Shown here piece by piece: positions 3,193-9,363 of a stretch of DNA of 16,206 nucleotides (positions within the stretch are counted from its first letter, which is position 1; every line of letters starts with the position of its first letter). The translations under genes and the position numbers were made by a program. The DNA is from Thiotrichaceae bacterium. GTDB taxonomy: Bacteria > Pseudomonadota > Gammaproteobacteria > Thiotrichales > Thiotrichaceae. Below the pieces are notes generated by a model that saw only the letters and a program-made list of their open reading frames with translations, was not told where the DNA came from and did not search any database. The DNA lies in contig JALVRY010000187.1 of the NCBI GenBank assembly GCA_027024625.1, positions 1 through 16,206 of the forward strand. The letters are read 5' to 3'.

Positions 3193-3234
3193 TAGATATT
3201 GCGAGATACTACATAGATATTGCGAGATACTACA
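3193..3234. repeat. Perfect 21-bp tandem duplication over a stop codon
   Basis: The unit starting TAGATATTGCGAGATACT (21 bp, ending ACA) occurs at 3193-3213 and is repeated without change at 3214-3234. The right copy contains the complement of the TAG stop (3230-3232) and the last base pairs of the minus-strand gene that follows; the left copy lies just downstream of that gene. It looks like a recent slippage duplication of the gene end. Confidence 0.85.
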
Positions 3235-6200
3235 GTGGTTTACTTGTGCAGGCTGCTAATGTATCCGCTCCAATTGTCCCCTCTAAGCTTGCTAGATAGC
3301 TAGTTTGCTTCACTGTTTCTAAGCGAATTTTAGCTCGATCTAATCGCCCTTGAATATCCAGCGTTTTAGCAATATCTTCATGTCCTTCAAGATCAAGGAA
3401 GTTTTTAAGATTCTCGCAGTGCTTTTCCCATAAAACGATGTCACGCTGTTGTTTAGTCTCTAGGCGTTTTTGATACCAATCTGAAGCTAGCATTGCATCA
3501 CGGTCAAATAATGCTCTAATTTCTGGATCATGTTCCGTTTTTCCTTGATACTTACCTGTTGCCATAATGTAGAGGATAGCTTTGAGGGGAGGGCAGGCAT
3601 CTTCGATACTGCCATCATCAAGGTATCTTTGCGCAACTGTTTGTTGTGCTTCAACAATATTATTAACGCCATCGATGTACTCATCCATATTTTGTGATTC
3701 TGGCTTCAATATTTTCTCATCAAAAACAACAGCAGGATTGTCGAAGATTTTTCCAAGATAGGCAGAAATAAAGCGATCTGTTATACGATAACCGAGTCGG
3801 CTTTGCTGGACTGTTTTACCTTTATGTTCGAAATCTTCTAGCTTTTCGAGGTAATTATTTTCAATCATGTGAGCTGGGTCTCTCTCATGCTCTTTTAAGC
3901 GTGCCCATATTTCAGGTATCAATAAGCTAATATCATGATCAACACGAATATTGGGACCAATATACCCCGCTGCACTTGAGAAGCCGGCGTAGCCTGTAAT
4001 AATAAAGGAAACTAAAGTGTTGTTGAGGTCAGCTGTAGTGCGTAGGGCGTTAAAAGCACCCTTGGTTAATGCACCTTCGCTGCCTGCACCTGTAGTAGAG
4101 GGTGATTTGCCTGTAACACTACAAATGAAGTCCATAAATAATTCAGGAAGTTCTTGATAATGAATGGGATTATAGACAGCGAGTGGACGTATTCCTTTTT
4201 CTGCTGGATTATTGCGGCGACCGGTTAGAACGGCGTTAACAGGAGAAACAACAGGTTGGGATAATCCTATCCCACGATTAATTCGTGCCCCCATTTCTGC
4301 GATATATGTTCTTGCAGGCTGTTGTAAATCGGGTCTTAGTTGTAAGTAACGTGGGTTTTTACTTGGTTCGCCATTGATAATGCGCGGGTTGGCGGATGAA
4401 ACAACATATTGATCACCCTTATCATAAGCTGCTTGTAAAAGATTCCTCATAGGGGGAGTATATTTTTGGAACTCTACAACATCTTCAACAATGGCCTCTA
4501 GGCTATCACCAATGAGCGGTTCATAGTTGGCAATAAAATTATTTGGCTGAGCCATATCGAATTCAGTTTGTGTATCAAAACCGCGATGTATTGCCTCATC
4601 TGGTCGCTGGAATAAACGGTATTCGCAGTTTTTTACAAGCTTAACACTTGGATTAGATGATTTTGGTGATGTGTTCGGTAATTTGTCAGCACTGACAACA
4701 ACAGATGCACTAATGTCATCCTCCATTTGCACTTTTTCAGTTGCAATGAAATCTTGGCGGACTTTGTAGGTATGCCATACTCCTTTTTTATCTAAACCAA
4801 CACGTAAATAAGAGGCAACGAGATCTCGTCCATCATATTTTAGTGCATGTCCTGGTTTTCCATTGATGATGTCAACATAAAAATGCTCACGCCAGTTTTT
4901 ACCCCACTCTGGTCGATACATGCGTTTAATAATAAAGGCTTGGGATAAAATGCGTGGAGGAATGCTTGCCAGCCAATCTTCGTACTCTGGTGTATTGCTG
5001 GTTGATGGGGTGAGTAGACGGATGACCGAGCCTAAGCTACGTCTTATATCCAGTGGTTTTCGTGTTGGGTCGGAGTCTTCATTAGCAAACTCAGGTTTCA
5101 AGTGATCGCTGTAATCTTTCTGGAAGATTTGCTCGACTTGATTCATGTCTTCATCAAAGTCTTGGACATATACAGCGCCATAAATGACCGCATCGTTGAT
5201 GGATTTTGATATTTCGGATTTACCGCCGCCTGAAACAGTACAAGGTTTATGGCAAAAAACACCTTCTGGATCTGTACCAATTAATCGCCATGATGGAGCA
5301 TGAGGGTGTTTCATCATTTCGATTTTATAGCCATTGGGTTGCATGTAAACTTTGTTTGGTTGCAACTTTATTTTTTGTTCTTTTCCATCTTTTTGCCAGC
5401 TAATGGTCTGTGTTTGCAGATTCATTTGCATGTGAAGGGGGATATAAATAAGGCTTGGATGTTTTTTGTCGATGGCATGTCCTTCGGGTTGGACATCCAT
5501 AACATCTCCAAACTGCTTAATGAGGTTCTCCATATTGAAGCGTTCAGGGTGGCGGTGTGCTTTGCTATCAATACCGTATTCTTCACCATGATTGCGACGA
5601 CGGAAAGCAAGTGCCCCGCCTGCATGCTCTTCTTCTGTTAAGCCAAATAAATTTGTGGCATAGCTGAGCTGTGTTTTGACTTCTTTTTTGCAATAGCCGT
5701 AGTAATTATCTGCCAGTATGGTAACGATAACTCCTTTTTCGTTACGGGTTGTGATTTTGAAGGCGTGTCCATCATTATATTTTTCATCTTCTGATGTCCA
5801 ACACATACCATCAGCTTTTTGTCGTTCGCTTGCCTCATCATAGTGTGGTAAACCTAGTTCTTTCTTTGTAAATTGGGTCAAGTGAGGAGCAAGAATGACG
5901 CAACCTGTGTGTCCAGACCAATGGCGTGTGTCCAAAGCCGCATCGTGTTCTGCAAGATAAGGGTTACCTGCGTTACCAAAAATACTTTCAACAAAATCAA
6001 GGTTGCTGACAAGATTGCCTGGTGCAAAGAAGCGTATCTCCATTGTTTTTTCAGGTGATACGGTTGGGATTTCTGGGCAAACAATAGGACGAAGTAGTAA
6101 AGACACAAATAATTTAGCTTGTTCCTTTTCATCTGTCGTAAATGGTAGCTGTAATAGTTCTTTAGGTGGGTTAAGAGCTTCTTTTAGTAGACGAGAAAAG

Positions 6201-6703
6201 ACAATTCTAGGTACGGCCTTTTTATCTCCAGGGATGGGTAAGCCACCCTCTGTCACATGAAATGATCCTTTAGTCGTTCTCCTGTCATTCGCTGGGTTGT
6301 GTAGGACGCCTTGGCGTATTCGGTAACTTGAAACGATGTCTGATGTGAATTTGTCCGTTGTTGATGGAATCGAGAGCTCTCGAGCGATTCCGTATCGATC
6401 AAGGACTAAGGTATTTGATGGAAGTTTTGGAGTACTATCACCGCAGTCCTTTAGGTACTCGTTTAAAAAATCTTGGATGCGTTCATCAGCAGGGCATTGG
6501 TAGCCATGTAAACGTCGATTTTTTTCTCGATAAGATTTCAGTAAATCATCTGCTGTTTCCATGAATTTTTCATCAACAGAGTGACTAAATGGCTGCCCTG
6601 TAGAGGCTAGTTTAAGATTAATATAGAGTTGTAGATGTTTACGTTCATCCTCGGGATTTTTTAAATTTCTATTTATACCAAGTGATTGTTCAATGTTTTT
6701 CAT
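3230..6703 (-). CDS. Probable PPi-dependent phosphoenolpyruvate carboxykinase
   Basis: Large soluble protein of 1157 residues. Size and several long stretches match my recollection of the pyrophosphate-type PEP carboxykinases (EC 4.1.1.38) known from Entamoeba and propionibacteria, which interconvert PEP, CO2 and Pi with oxaloacetate and PPi. Diagnostic-looking segments are QGVLHNPANDRRTTKGSFHV (131-150), SNLDFVESIFGNAGNPYL (233-250), HTGCVILAPHL (265-275), ADNYYGYCKKEVKTQLSY (331-348) and EEEHAGGALAF (357-367). TVSGGGKSEI at 489-498 resembles a phosphate-binding loop, and a second Gly/Ser-rich segment, TGKSPSTTGAGSEGALTKG, lies at 864-882. No signal peptide or membrane span is seen, so it is probably cytoplasmic. 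The start is the ATG complementary to 6701-6703, with CAGG about 8 bases upstream. The gene stands alone, convergent with yfjD, and its upstream side is full of inverted-repeat elements. The family call is from memory; the frame is intact. Confidence 0.68.
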   Translation of the reverse strand: MKNIEQSLGINRNLKNPEDERKHLQLYINLKLASTGQPFSHSVDEKFMETADDLLKSYREKNRRLHGYQCPADERIQDFLNEYLKDCGDSTPKLPSNTLVLDRYGIARELSIPSTTDKFTSDIVSSYRIRQGVLHNPANDRRTTKGSFHVTEGGLPIPGDKKAVPRIVFSRLLKEALNPPKELLQLPFTTDEKEQAKLFVSLLLRPIVCPEIPTVSPEKTMEIRFFAPGNLVSNLDFVESIFGNAGNPYLAEHDAALDTRHWSGHTGCVILAPHLTQFTKKELGLPHYDEASERQKADGMCWTSEDEKYNDGHAFKITTRNEKGVIVTILADNYYGYCKKEVKTQLSYATNLFGLTEEEHAGGALAFRRRNHGEEYGIDSKAHRHPERFNMENLIKQFGDVMDVQPEGHAIDKKHPSLIYIPLHMQMNLQTQTISWQKDGKEQKIKLQPNKVYMQPNGYKIEMMKHPHAPSWRLIGTDPEGVFCHKPCTVSGGGKSEISKSINDAVIYGAVYVQDFDEDMNQVEQIFQKDYSDHLKPEFANEDSDPTRKPLDIRRSLGSVIRLLTPSTSNTPEYEDWLASIPPRILSQAFIIKRMYRPEWGKNWREHFYVDIINGKPGHALKYDGRDLVASYLRVGLDKKGVWHTYKVRQDFIATEKVQMEDDISASVVVSADKLPNTSPKSSNPSVKLVKNCEYRLFQRPDEAIHRGFDTQTEFDMAQPNNFIANYEPLIGDSLEAIVEDVVEFQKYTPPMRNLLQAAYDKGDQYVVSSANPRIINGEPSKNPRYLQLRPDLQQPARTYIAEMGARINRGIGLSQPVVSPVNAVLTGRRNNPAEKGIRPLAVYNPIHYQELPELFMDFICSVTGKSPSTTGAGSEGALTKGAFNALRTTADLNNTLVSFIITGYAGFSSAAGYIGPNIRVDHDISLLIPEIWARLKEHERDPAHMIENNYLEKLEDFEHKGKTVQQSRLGYRITDRFISAYLGKIFDNPAVVFDEKILKPESQNMDEYIDGVNNIVEAQQTVAQRYLDDGSIEDACPPLKAILYIMATGKYQGKTEHDPEIRALFDRDAMLASDWYQKRLETKQQRDIVLWEKHCENLKNFLDLEGHEDIAKTLDIQGRLDRAKIRLETVKQTSYLASLEGTIGADTLAACTSKPL

Positions 6704-6740
6704 TTAAAAACCTGTTTCCCAAGTGAGTTTTGTGAGGTGT

Positions 6741-6959
6741 GCTTCTTAAGGAAACTCTGATTAAGTAGGAAGTGAGGCTTTAGAGGCTGTGTAAGTATTC
6801 ATGGAACGCGAAAAGAATGGTTAAAATTTTTTCGCAGTTCCAGAATACTTGCACAGTCTCTTTAGCCTCGCCCGAAACAACAGTATTTCAATACCTTACA
6901 GGCGATACTAAAGTGTCGCTTCCAATGTTTTGGACTTAATCAAAGTTTCCTCAAAAAGC
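6741..6959. mobile_element. MITE-like element, nested inverted repeats
   Basis: The outer arms at 6741-6766 and 6934-6959 match as reverse complements at 23 of 26 positions; the core is GGAAACTCTGATTAAGT. Inside lies a second, longer inverted repeat: 6774-6814 pairs with 6829-6869 with a few mismatches and small bulges, leaving a loop of about 14 bases. No open frame is present. TTAA (6746-6749) before GGAAAC and TCAA (6951-6954) after GTTTCC could be a decayed 4-bp target duplication of IS5-family type. Asymmetry of the inner hairpin within the outer arms suggests either one non-autonomous element or one inserted into another. Confidence 0.65.
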
Positions 6960-6978
6960 TTTTATTCGTTGTTCAAGT

Positions 6979-7003
6979 AGCTTTGAATAGTGTATTCAAA
7001 GCT
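6979..7003. repeat. Perfect 11-bp hairpin
   Basis: AGCTTTGAATA and TATTCAAAGCT are exact reverse complements around a GTG loop. There is no U-tract on either strand, so it is not a convincing intrinsic terminator. It sits just outside the element at 6741-6959 and could be a remnant or a protein-binding site. Confidence 0.5.
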
Positions 7004-7259
7004 GCTGAGTTTGTCTGAAAGTATGAAATAAGCTACTACATCTTACAAATTAGGTGGATTTACAGTAGCGTATTTCGTTATTAGACAGCCTCATAGCGAA
7101 TACTGTTATTTATTGATAGCCCTAAGTATTTGCACAAACTGCCCCGAATCTAGCAATATTATCATTAGCTTTCTATATTCTTAATGGGGTGGTGGATCGA
7201 TTGTCTCTGTTTTCTGTTCAGCCAAATGACGGATGTTTAAAAGTAGACTAAGGAAATGG

Positions 7260-7425
7260 CTAGTACAGTGAACGGTAATTACAACTAATAATCTGACGGT
7301 CTAAATCCTTGATAACGGCGTTATCATTCCTCCCCATAGCTCTGCTATGACTCGTCATAATGCTTTGTTCTCAAAAATTTATTCTTGCCAGAATTATTTG
7401 CCGTAATTACCGTTCACTGTACTAG
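7260..7425. mobile_element. MITE-like element with CTAG flanks
   Basis: The terminal arms at 7260-7282 and 7403-7425 are perfect 23-bp reverse complements with core TACAGTGAACGGTAATTAC. Weaker pairing continues inward along most of the roughly 166-bp unit, centred on a small CATAGC-TCT-GCTATG hairpin (7335-7349). The four outermost bases on each side are CTAG, which reads as a 4-bp target duplication around an element at 7264-7421; CTAG is itself a palindrome, so it also counts as part of the inverted repeat. No coding capacity. IS5-family transposases typically duplicate such YTAR tetranucleotides, so mobilisation in trans by one is plausible. Confidence 0.75.
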
Positions 7426-7497
7426 GAGGTTCACATTCTTAGATGGCCTACGATGGGAATAACCGTTAATCAAAATTGTTGTAGTTGTGCAACGGTA

Positions 7498-7529
7498 ATA
7501 TGTTGACTTTTTACAACATATGTAATAAT
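7498..7529 (+). promoter_or_regulatory. Operator-like palindrome over a promoter candidate
   Basis: ATATGTTG (7498-7505) and CAACATAT (7514-7521) form an 8-bp dyad with an 8-base spacer. TTGACT (7503-7508) overlaps the left arm, and AATAAT (7524-7529), preceded by TG as in an extended -10, follows at 15-base spacing. A repressor bound to the dyad would cover the -35. A transcript starting near 7536 would have a leader of about 200 bases before the helicase-like gene. Consensus matching only. Confidence 0.35.
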
Positions 7530-7740
7530 TTTCGTACAAGTGTGACGCGGTATATGTGAGTATATATAAAATCATGGGTTTCTCAATGCGTCCAGTTTCT
7601 CGATAGTTATCAAGTACCTAAGTGTTAAAATTGGGTGCTGTTGGTTACCCCAAAGCCGTCTTAAATAAAATTTTATCAAATATAAAACGACGTGTTCATT
7701 AGGATTCTATTCCTTAGCGTCAGACGTGGAAGTTACGATC

Positions 7741-9363
7741 TTGTCATTTTCAGAATTAGACCTAAATAGCGAGTGTATCGCTACCTTAGAACAAGCAGGT
7801 TACAAAGAACCGACTGAGCTACAGCGGCGACTTATTCCCCTTATCAAGGAGAAGAAGAATGTCTTGGTAAAAAGTCAGTCTGCATCTGGTAAAACAGGAG
7901 CCTTTTTAATCCCCGCAATTAATTACGTTTTAGAGAATCCGTTGGAAGATTATCATGGTGCTAGAGTCATGATACTAACGTCTCGTAAAGATCGTGTTAA
8001 TCAGATTAAGTATACGGTCAAAAAACTAGCGACTAGCCAGAGCTTTCGTTTTGGGTTTATTGTTAGTGGTCGTCCGTATCAACCTCAGATGCGTTTACTT
8101 CGTCGTCCTTTGGATATTATGGTTGCGACACCTGGGCGTTTAAGTGACTTGTCTGATAATGGCAAGGCAGATTTTTCTCAGCTCGAAATGCTTATCGTTG
8201 ATGACCTTGCGTCAATATATCATAAAGAATTTCATGGACTTATTGATAAAATACTAAGTCAACGAACAAGAGAGTATCCTATTGTCTTGTTTGTGCGTGA
8301 TGATGAAAATGTATTAAGTTACGCTAACAGTTTAATTCCTGATGCTGTTGAGTTAGAAGTTGAAGAAGATAAACATCCGCTTGCAAAAATACCACAACGG
8401 CTACAACTGTGTGATGACTATACGCATAAAATCGCCATTATGGATTATCTTTTAGATGACTATCAGGGGGAGTCAACTCTGATTTTCACCTCAACAGATA
8501 AGTCGGCTGCAAACTTAGCAGATAACTTAGCTAACCATGGTCATACTGCTGATGTTGCTAAAGAGTTAACAGAGCAAGAGCAGACAGAAAGTACAGTTTT
8601 AATTGTGAGTGATGAAACCACAACAGCATTACAGTCGTATGATTTTCAACATATTTTACATTTTGAATTGCCCAAATTGACTGATAACTATGTTGCAAGG
8701 ATGGAAGGTAAGCATTGGGATACAAGAACTGAACCCGTTATTGCTTTACTTGGAATACAGGAAAGAGAGTCGCTTAAGCGTATAGAAGAGCTGTTAGGCA
8801 TAGAGATAGAAAAACAAACAATTCCAGGGCTTGAGTCTTTGAACCCGTTTATGACGTTCAAACCTGATTTCTCGTCGAGGAAGTCAAACACAAATAAAAA
8901 TAATAAATCTCATGGTAAACGTCGCAGCGCAGGGCAGTTTGGTAAACGGCGTGGTGGCGATAGAAATAAAAGAGATGCCTCAACAACAGATAGCCAGCGT
9001 AGAACGAAGAAAGGGCGTTTTGGGCGTTTGAGTGGGGGAATACATCGAAAGAGAGAGGAGACATCTTCCTCAGCTAAGCCAGTAAATGGCATAAAAAACA
9101 GAAGTAAATCTCAATCTGCAGGTAAAGCTGGAGCAGGTAAAGCGCGCTCTAATATAAAGACAACAAGCCCTAATAAGGGGTATACCGTTAGAACAAAACA
9201 GAAGAAGACCTTTAAATCACCCAGCGATAGCAACTGGAGTGGAGGTAGAGGTTCTGCCTTTCCAACGATAAAAGACCCACAGGATGCAGCGAAGGATAAA
9301 GATAGCAGTGCAAATGTTGTTATTCGTTATAAAGATAAAAAGCGTTTTTTAAAACAGGAATAG
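7741..9363 (+). CDS. Degenerate RhlE-type DEAD-box protein (pseudohelicase)
   Basis: RhlE-lineage DEAD-box protein, 540 residues from a TTG start. I prefer TTG at 7741 over GTG at 7726: the product then begins MSFSELDLNSE, like RhlE proteins, and GGAAG (7728-7732) lies 8 bases upstream. The Q motif GYKEPTELQ (20-28), Walker A SQSASGKTG (45-53) and TPGR (130-133) remain. Motif II DEAD reads DDLA (154-157). Motif III SAT is absent (LFVRDDEN near 183-190). Motif V, normally ARGLD, reads TTALQ (about 294-298). Motif VI HRIGRTGR is replaced by ARMEGKHW (319-326), and the QxxR region is deleted. RecA2 still ends with an RhlE-like IPGLE. Residues from about 380 to the end are a Lys/Arg/Ser-rich tail, probably RNA-binding. 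ATP-driven unwinding is unlikely; an RNA scaffold or antagonist role is inference. The frame is intact. Confidence 0.85.
   Translation: MSFSELDLNSECIATLEQAGYKEPTELQRRLIPLIKEKKNVLVKSQSASGKTGAFLIPAINYVLENPLEDYHGARVMILTSRKDRVNQIKYTVKKLATSQSFRFGFIVSGRPYQPQMRLLRRPLDIMVATPGRLSDLSDNGKADFSQLEMLIVDDLASIYHKEFHGLIDKILSQRTREYPIVLFVRDDENVLSYANSLIPDAVELEVEEDKHPLAKIPQRLQLCDDYTHKIAIMDYLLDDYQGESTLIFTSTDKSAANLADNLANHGHTADVAKELTEQEQTESTVLIVSDETTTALQSYDFQHILHFELPKLTDNYVARMEGKHWDTRTEPVIALLGIQERESLKRIEELLGIEIEKQTIPGLESLNPFMTFKPDFSSRKSNTNKNNKSHGKRRSAGQFGKRRGGDRNKRDASTTDSQRRTKKGRFGRLSGGIHRKREETSSSAKPVNGIKNRSKSQSAGKAGAGKARSNIKTTSPNKGYTVRTKQKKTFKSPSDSNWSGGRGSAFPTIKDPQDAAKDKDSSANVVIRYKDKKRFLKQE

Follow-up and report, generated by a model that had tools for sequence, protein, structure and literature searches.

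Utp25 (Def), a pseudohelicase of the eukaryotic small-subunit processome, is described, in the part of the report drawn on here, as conserved from yeast to human and as combining a two-RecA DEAD-box fold with vestigial motifs, a disordered extension and no DEAD (PMC9539457). In bacteria, PriA of Deinococcus radiodurans is a helicase homologue whose activity has been lost and whose gene has been kept (PMC4504706, PMC9539457, both in excerpt), but it belongs to the PriA family of DNA replication restart. A literature search, limited in coverage and in terms, found no bacterial DEAD-box pseudohelicase, and bacterial DEAD-box proteins are usually regarded as motors. Here we describe a gene at 7741..9363 of a 16,206-nucleotide stretch of DNA (positions 1 to 16,206 of contig JALVRY010000187.1, assembly GCA_027024625.1) from a Thiotrichaceae bacterium; the whole stretch is referred to as the window and the gene product as the window protein. 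Judged from sequence comparison, the window protein and its relatives are very likely a family of Thiotrichales DEAD-box pseudohelicases, which resembles Utp25 in its fold, vestigial motifs, disordered extension and missing DEAD, and resembles D. radiodurans PriA as a bacterial helicase homologue with its activity in all probability lost and its gene kept, although unlike PriA it is of the DEAD-box type. Compared by description with the same partial source, Utp25 carries its extension at the N-terminus whereas the bacterial family has a C-terminal tail; Utp25 is reported to keep motif Ia, with the Q motif and motifs IV, V and VI partial, whereas the family keeps the Q motif, GKT and TPGR, with a changed motif II and a remodelled motif Ia; and only Utp25 has been reported to be essential (PMC9539457).

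The gene and its start are laid out as follows.

7741..9363, forward strand: pseudohelicase coding sequence with a TTG start, 540 aa, placed by the TTG start column of the family loci
7741..7743, forward strand: UUG start codon, TTG in 46/46 family loci
7727..7732, forward strand: Shine-Dalgarno (SD)-like purine stretch TGGAAG upstream of the TTG

The list of open reading frames (ORFs) offers an alternative reading, 7726-9363, with a GTG start and 545 aa, from which the residue numbers used below are taken (the TTG is residue 6). The GTG at 7726 is matched in position by only two other loci of the 46 (L038 and L039, of the same genus). As judged from the alignment of loci, the TTG at 7741 is the better start, because TTG fills that position, with an SD-like stretch upstream, in every one of the 46 loci with sequence there, the 47th being truncated at the edge of its contig. 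In 30 of the 46 loci this codon is the first ATG, GTG or TTG after the in-frame stop; an upstream in-frame ATG occurs in 7, and an upstream GTG or TTG in 9, window included. Among the 18 Leu columns (Leu in at least 44 sequences), the start column is the sole one with a single codon, and it is therefore a start codon and not an ordinary leucine.

The reading frame is open throughout, and structure prediction gives its product a two-RecA DEAD-box core followed by a basic disordered tail, the tandem RecA fold of DEAD-box helicases thus being present by prediction only. Pfam DEAD matches the product at E = 4.6e-24 and Helicase_C falls below its cut-off. The core ends in TIPGLE, and the tail comprises 170 aa with 28% K+R. 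The original prediction for this DNA had claimed a frame without internal stops, persistence of the two-RecA fold, an IPGLE ending and a Lys/Arg-rich tail, all of which were confirmed, the fold by prediction; it gave the length of the tail as about 160 residues. To follow the motifs, we aligned the best 120 of 341 matches (E <= 1e-20; 7,999 candidates scored), window protein included.

7810..7827, forward strand: Q motif region PTELQR (alignment)
7876..7902, forward strand: modified Walker A, QSASGKTGA (alignment)
7975..7998, forward strand: re-specialised motif Ia, LTSRKDRV, formerly xxPTRELA (alignment)
8065..8073, forward strand: GG motif changed to SGR (alignment)
8122..8142, forward strand: motif Ib, VATPGRL, intact (alignment)
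8200..8211, forward strand: motif II, DEAD changed to DDLA (alignment)
8293..8301, forward strand: motif III, SAT changed to VRD (alignment)
8356..8850, forward strand: RecA domain 2, net charge -18 (prediction and alignment)
8620..8634, forward strand: motif V, ARGLD changed to TTALQ (alignment)
8695..8718, forward strand: motif VI, HRIGRTGR changed to ARMEGKHW (alignment)
8851..9360, forward strand: basic disordered tail, net charge +34, with conserved KKGRFGRLSGG and C-terminal VVIRYKDK motifs

None of the 120 aligned sequences has the catalytic signature of an active DEAD-box protein. DD[LM][STA] replaces D-E-A-D in all of them, SAT is found in 0/120, and the arginine-finger pair of motif VI is complete in none (7 sequences have just one of the two, at 328); E160, D162 and the RG of motif V are each absent from the whole set, and conservation is lost in the GDLxQxxR columns. 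What is kept is equally uniform: Q33 is present in 119/119 ungapped sequences, K56 and T57 in 120/120, so that the Q motif and the GKT of the P-loop are those expected of a DEAD-box protein, and the first Arg of motif VI (R325) is likewise retained in 120/120. The alignment thus agrees with the original prediction on retention of the Q motif and on DDLA, the loss of SAT, TTALQ, ARMEGKHW and the QxxR region; its statement that Walker A survives holds for the GKT part, whereas the first Gly is Ala (G53A) in 120/120. Two further changes had gone unnoted, since motif Ia reads SR[RK]DRV in place of PTRELA as the family consensus (SRKDRV in the window protein) and GG has become SG, each in 120/120. 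The invariant residues include A53, G55, K56, T57, S86, R87, D89, R90, V91, S114, G115, R116, D159, D160 and R325, and R191 is present in 114/120.

Conservation is unevenly distributed over the two domains, with 70 invariant columns in domain 1 vs 19 in domain 2. Twenty-four columns, 22 of them in domain 1, are conserved in the family and in the canonical group alike but with different residues; these positions have therefore been replaced by new fixed residues and not left drifting. In domain 2, columns 291-375 have a mean conservation of 0.57 in the family vs 0.79 in the canonical group, and the mean net charge of the domain is -15 in the family vs +3 in canonical relatives.

The window genome is a 2.61 Mb draft in 490 contigs, 83% complete with 6.6% contamination. 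Relatives of the window protein were found in 60 of the 63 genomes of one Thiotrichales family group, its own included (E <= 1e-50), one match each in 59 of them and two on different contigs in the remaining one (G423). A match is present in 45 of the 46 genomes with at least 90% completeness and at most 5% contamination; in the 46th (G028) there is a 131-aa open frame at a contig end with 57% identity over query residues 4-102, and completeness is 89% and 80% in the other two genomes that lack a match. Two family peptide patterns retrieved 57 stretches from the contig collection, of which 46 are confirmed relatives; such a scan reaches only proteins that carry the peptides, and near-neighbours of the window genome may be missing from it. 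The titles of 41 of these 46 read Thiotrichaceae, Thiothrix, Leucothrix, Cocleimonas, Thiofilum or Thiolinea, and the remaining five Proteobacteria (2), Gammaproteobacteria (2) and Aquificaceae (1). NCBI places Thiothrix, Leucothrix and Cocleimonas in the Thiotrichaceae, Thiofilum in the Thiofilaceae and Thiolinea in the Thiolinaceae, all in the Thiotrichales, a group that the genome collection treats as a single family. The sequence titled Aquificaceae bacterium (L043) is a family member with Leucothrix-like neighbours and probably a mislabelled metagenome bin. Where databases name the family proteins at all, they call them DEAD/DEAH box helicase or superfamily II helicase, which is misleading.

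A class-wide sample of 369 genomes gave 37 with a match at E <= 1e-45, three in the family group and 34 outside it; all 27 of the outside relatives that we examined have DEAD, SAT or TAT, ARGLD-type and HRIGRTGR motifs together with GKT.

Substitution rates were estimated from 47 coding sequences with our own script for the NG86 ratio of nonsynonymous to synonymous change (dN/dS), some pairs consisting of partial genes. In 21 of the 25 closest pairs, those with unsaturated dS, dN/dS over the compared part lies between 0.036 and 0.119; among close pairs domain 1 gives 0.010-0.060 and the tail 0.039-0.523, and domain 2 is in some pairs as low as domain 1. For the window gene, the pair with L038 has dN 0.197 and a dS of 2.4, near saturation, and the pair with L039 a saturated dS. 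Compared over its whole length with relatives in three other genera, the window protein is 50-53% identical, vs 58-62% for RhlE- and DeaD-type genes. On these sequence data the family is maintained by purifying selection and is not a decaying copy. The original prediction had argued for retained function over decay, and the same motif losses in orthologues of the genus and family, with low dN/dS in close pairs, favour its argument. The loss of five helicase motifs is what a pseudogene decaying in the window strain would offer in its support; the identical losses in all 120 aligned sequences, a close-pair dN/dS far below 1, the presence of the gene in 60/63 genomes and the constant start codon rule it out, and we give it practically no credence. 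Pseudohelicase is used here as it is for Utp25: the signature is lost, the gene is conserved and the helicase fold is retained, the last by prediction only.

Which active helicase gave rise to the family is less clear. The original prediction took the gene for an RhlE relative, and RhlE does share the DEAD-box core with the window protein; RhlE cores also have an IPGLE-like ending. However, the best-scoring NCBIfam models are SrmB (NF008394, 189 bits) and CsdA (NF053636, 185 bits), ahead of RhlE (163 bits). All of these scores are far below the cut-offs of 507, 890 and 743, respectively, and the canonical SrmB and CsdA proteins keep their catalytic motifs. The original prediction had proposed looking for a canonical rhlE elsewhere in the genome; the window genome has three further DEAD-box genes, canonical and with intact motifs (L003 with DEVD and TAT), as well as one further PF00270 match of 28.8 bits, barely above cut-off. 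Their best NCBIfam scores, L001 662.8 (PRK11634), L002 640.4 (RhlE) and L003 459.7 (RhlE1), are all below cut-off; by tree placement L001 is DeaD, and L002 and L003 fall on the RhlE side, L002 being a separate RhlE-like gene of the genome. In a tree of 73 rows, 20 family members form a single clade (100/100) on a stem of 2.37, beside the canonical class group and apart from the RhlE, DeaD and RhlB proteins that these genomes also encode. The description as an RhlE relative therefore did not stand as worded, given the lower RhlE score, the best tree and the separate L002, and the evidence leans, from sequence, towards an SrmB/CsdA-like active helicase as ancestor. Weighing against this ancestry, the split uniting family and class group has modest support (85/76), in a tree whose class rows were picked as best matches to the window protein, which biases placement. 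A tree constrained to join the family to RhlE is worse by 14.1 log units and is not rejected by the approximately unbiased test (p-AU 0.11), and the parent is therefore not settled. SrmB matches above cut-off number 0/60 in family genomes and 1/14 in control genomes, which is weak evidence of absence because the canonical class relatives scanned (6 of the 27), all of which score best with the SrmB/CsdA models, miss the SrmB cut-off as well. The idea that bacteria of the family lack both SrmB and DbpA was dropped, DbpA being above cut-off in 35/63 genomes.

Across 69 genomes UUG accounts for 4% of starts, according to the portion of PMC11497404 used here. In 11 of the 12 neighbouring gene families, ATG predominates in the first column that could hold the start (candidate starts only; CorC has GTG in 4/12), and no such column was found for the twelfth. 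Many of the 27 canonical class relatives share the candidate non-AUG start position, with TTG in 14, GTG in 8, ATG in 4 and one unresolved, although just 7 of the 22 non-ATG sequences are free of competing start codons over a distance of 30 codons, and in the others it is ambiguous where translation really begins. By comparison, among 21 canonical genes of the same family group, 15 could be placed, and all 15 have ATG there or at most 13 codons upstream. The weak start is probably an inherited trait of the lineage, as far as these alignments indicate. Several of the canonical class relatives (L084-L110) share a purine-rich leader such as GGCGGANGAGG right before the start, and ancestral translational control is possible in them. 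Start-codon feedback has precedents in ribosomal protein S20 and IF3, and rpsT starts with UUG and infC with AUU. Mutations of the rpsT leader and initiation codon affect autoregulation, to go by the title of Parsons 1988 as cited in PMC7069363. Short hairpins limited to subclades and recognised by eye, such as CCCGUG..CACAGGGG, lie about 30 bases before the TTG in L048, L073, L075, L080, L083 and others and appear to overlap the ribosome-binding site; a family-wide structure is unsupported.

We compared 47 gene neighbourhoods, many of them cut by contig ends, with ffh and RadA named from Pfam domains. Thiothrix-side loci and the window share upstream genes for SRP54 (ffh, 18), cytochrome c assembly (16) and CNNM/CorC (15), and 18 Thiothrix-side loci, but not the window, have a RadA-like gene. 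On the Leucothrix/Cocleimonas side the upstream genes encode EF-Ts and S2 (18 each) and an M24 peptidase (20), and a TPR protein (17) lies downstream. This gene order supports vertical descent and is weak evidence on function. No gene order common to the family and its canonical class relatives was seen in 12 neighbourhoods of the latter (the helicase was recognised in 11, not in L157); only two single genes, one in L147 and one in L153, resembled rare family neighbours. In the window, the position of the RadA-like gene of many Thiothrix-side relatives is occupied by a 1157-aa ORF (3230-6703) without a Pfam match at 0.001, which is by sequence a pyrophosphate-dependent phosphoenolpyruvate carboxykinase (PDB 6k31, 8e1u). 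Between it and the pseudohelicase lies roughly 1 kb (6704-7725) in which no ORF of at least 80 aa is listed and no tRNA or Rfam match was found, and no known RNA elements or tRNAs were found anywhere in the window.

The roles of the individual DEAD-box motifs are established knowledge. By sequence, the family has lost SAT, motif V, both arginine fingers and the general base, where E has become D. It still has TPGR and the residues that bind adenine and phosphate (F, Q, GKT and the first Asp of motif II), and motif Ia has new invariant basic residues. Read in this way, the protein is most likely a nucleotide-binding, non-hydrolysing RNA scaffold or cofactor. Domain 1 would hold ATP or ADP without productive hydrolysis, its remodelled Ia/Ib face would grip RNA and the basic tail may anchor the protein there, while an acidic domain 2 would not clamp RNA but dock a basic protein partner instead; the whole would act as a nucleotide-dependent ribonucleoprotein scaffold or helicase cofactor, and its own synthesis may be restrained via the weak start codon. 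The ribosome would be the likeliest site, because of the analogy with Utp25 (PMC9539457, in the part consulted) and with odd-start ribosomal genes, although a role in ribosome assembly is a tentative proposal that we rate below an even chance. The fullest version, in which an active motor became a nucleotide-gated, non-hydrolysing ribosome-assembly scaffold with its dose set by the ancestral UUG and with feedback from the state of ribosomes and initiation factors on its synthesis, is unlikely in all its parts together.

A slow, cryptic ATPase with altered RNA remodelling could build on the same residues, with D160 as base and R191 or R325 substituting for the arginine fingers: K56, T57, D159, D160 and R325 are invariant, R191 nearly so, and the replacement residues are fixed and not drifting. 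Yet in 120/120 domain 2 lacks the residues that would complete the active site, namely RG in motif V and the arginines R328 and R331, and the columns concerned vary freely; the scarcity of invariant columns in domain 2 speaks in the same sense, and we consider such an enzyme quite improbable. Somewhat better placed, if still doubtful, is a dominant-negative or regulatory partner that pairs with a canonical helicase (RhlE or DeaD) instead of acting on RNA itself. RhlE-, DeaD- and RhlB-type genes coexist in G033, G003, G018 and G013, and pseudoenzymes with regulatory roles are known (PMC9539457, in excerpt), but a canonical helicase gene lies nearby in just 1 of the 47 neighbourhoods (L039), and the basic tail and TPGR suggest RNA contacts of the protein's own.

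Several observations weigh against the scaffold reading or its extension to the ribosome. The invariant D160 could in principle serve as a weak base, and the G53A change might interfere with the binding of nucleotide. Nor do all members have an acidic domain 2, its charge ranging from -23 to +7. The link to the ribosome leans on the analogy with ribosomal-gene starts of the UUG and AUU kind and on housekeeping neighbours, which differ between two subclades. An SD-sequestering leader hairpin was rejected as a family-wide feature, since RNAalifold gave 0 pairs across 46 leaders, and SD pairing in the leaders was no different from shuffled controls (mean 0.67 vs 0.70). In E. coli, changing DEAD to AAAD in SrmB gives a deletion-like cold-sensitive phenotype, as reported in the section of PMC6736130 used here; SrmB needs its ATPase in vivo, and the job of the family must therefore differ from that of SrmB.

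The evidence suggests a repurposed RNA-handling protein in sulfur bacteria and not a dying gene, because selection keeps the gene in nearly all of the genomes examined and its rare UUG start is constant. If the scaffold reading is true, the family would show the work that a helicase scaffold can do without ATP turnover, with the nucleotide pocket held and new surface residues fixed, and would be a bacterial counterpart of Utp25. The constant UUG, for its part, poses a testable question, namely why these bacteria have kept a weak start codon.
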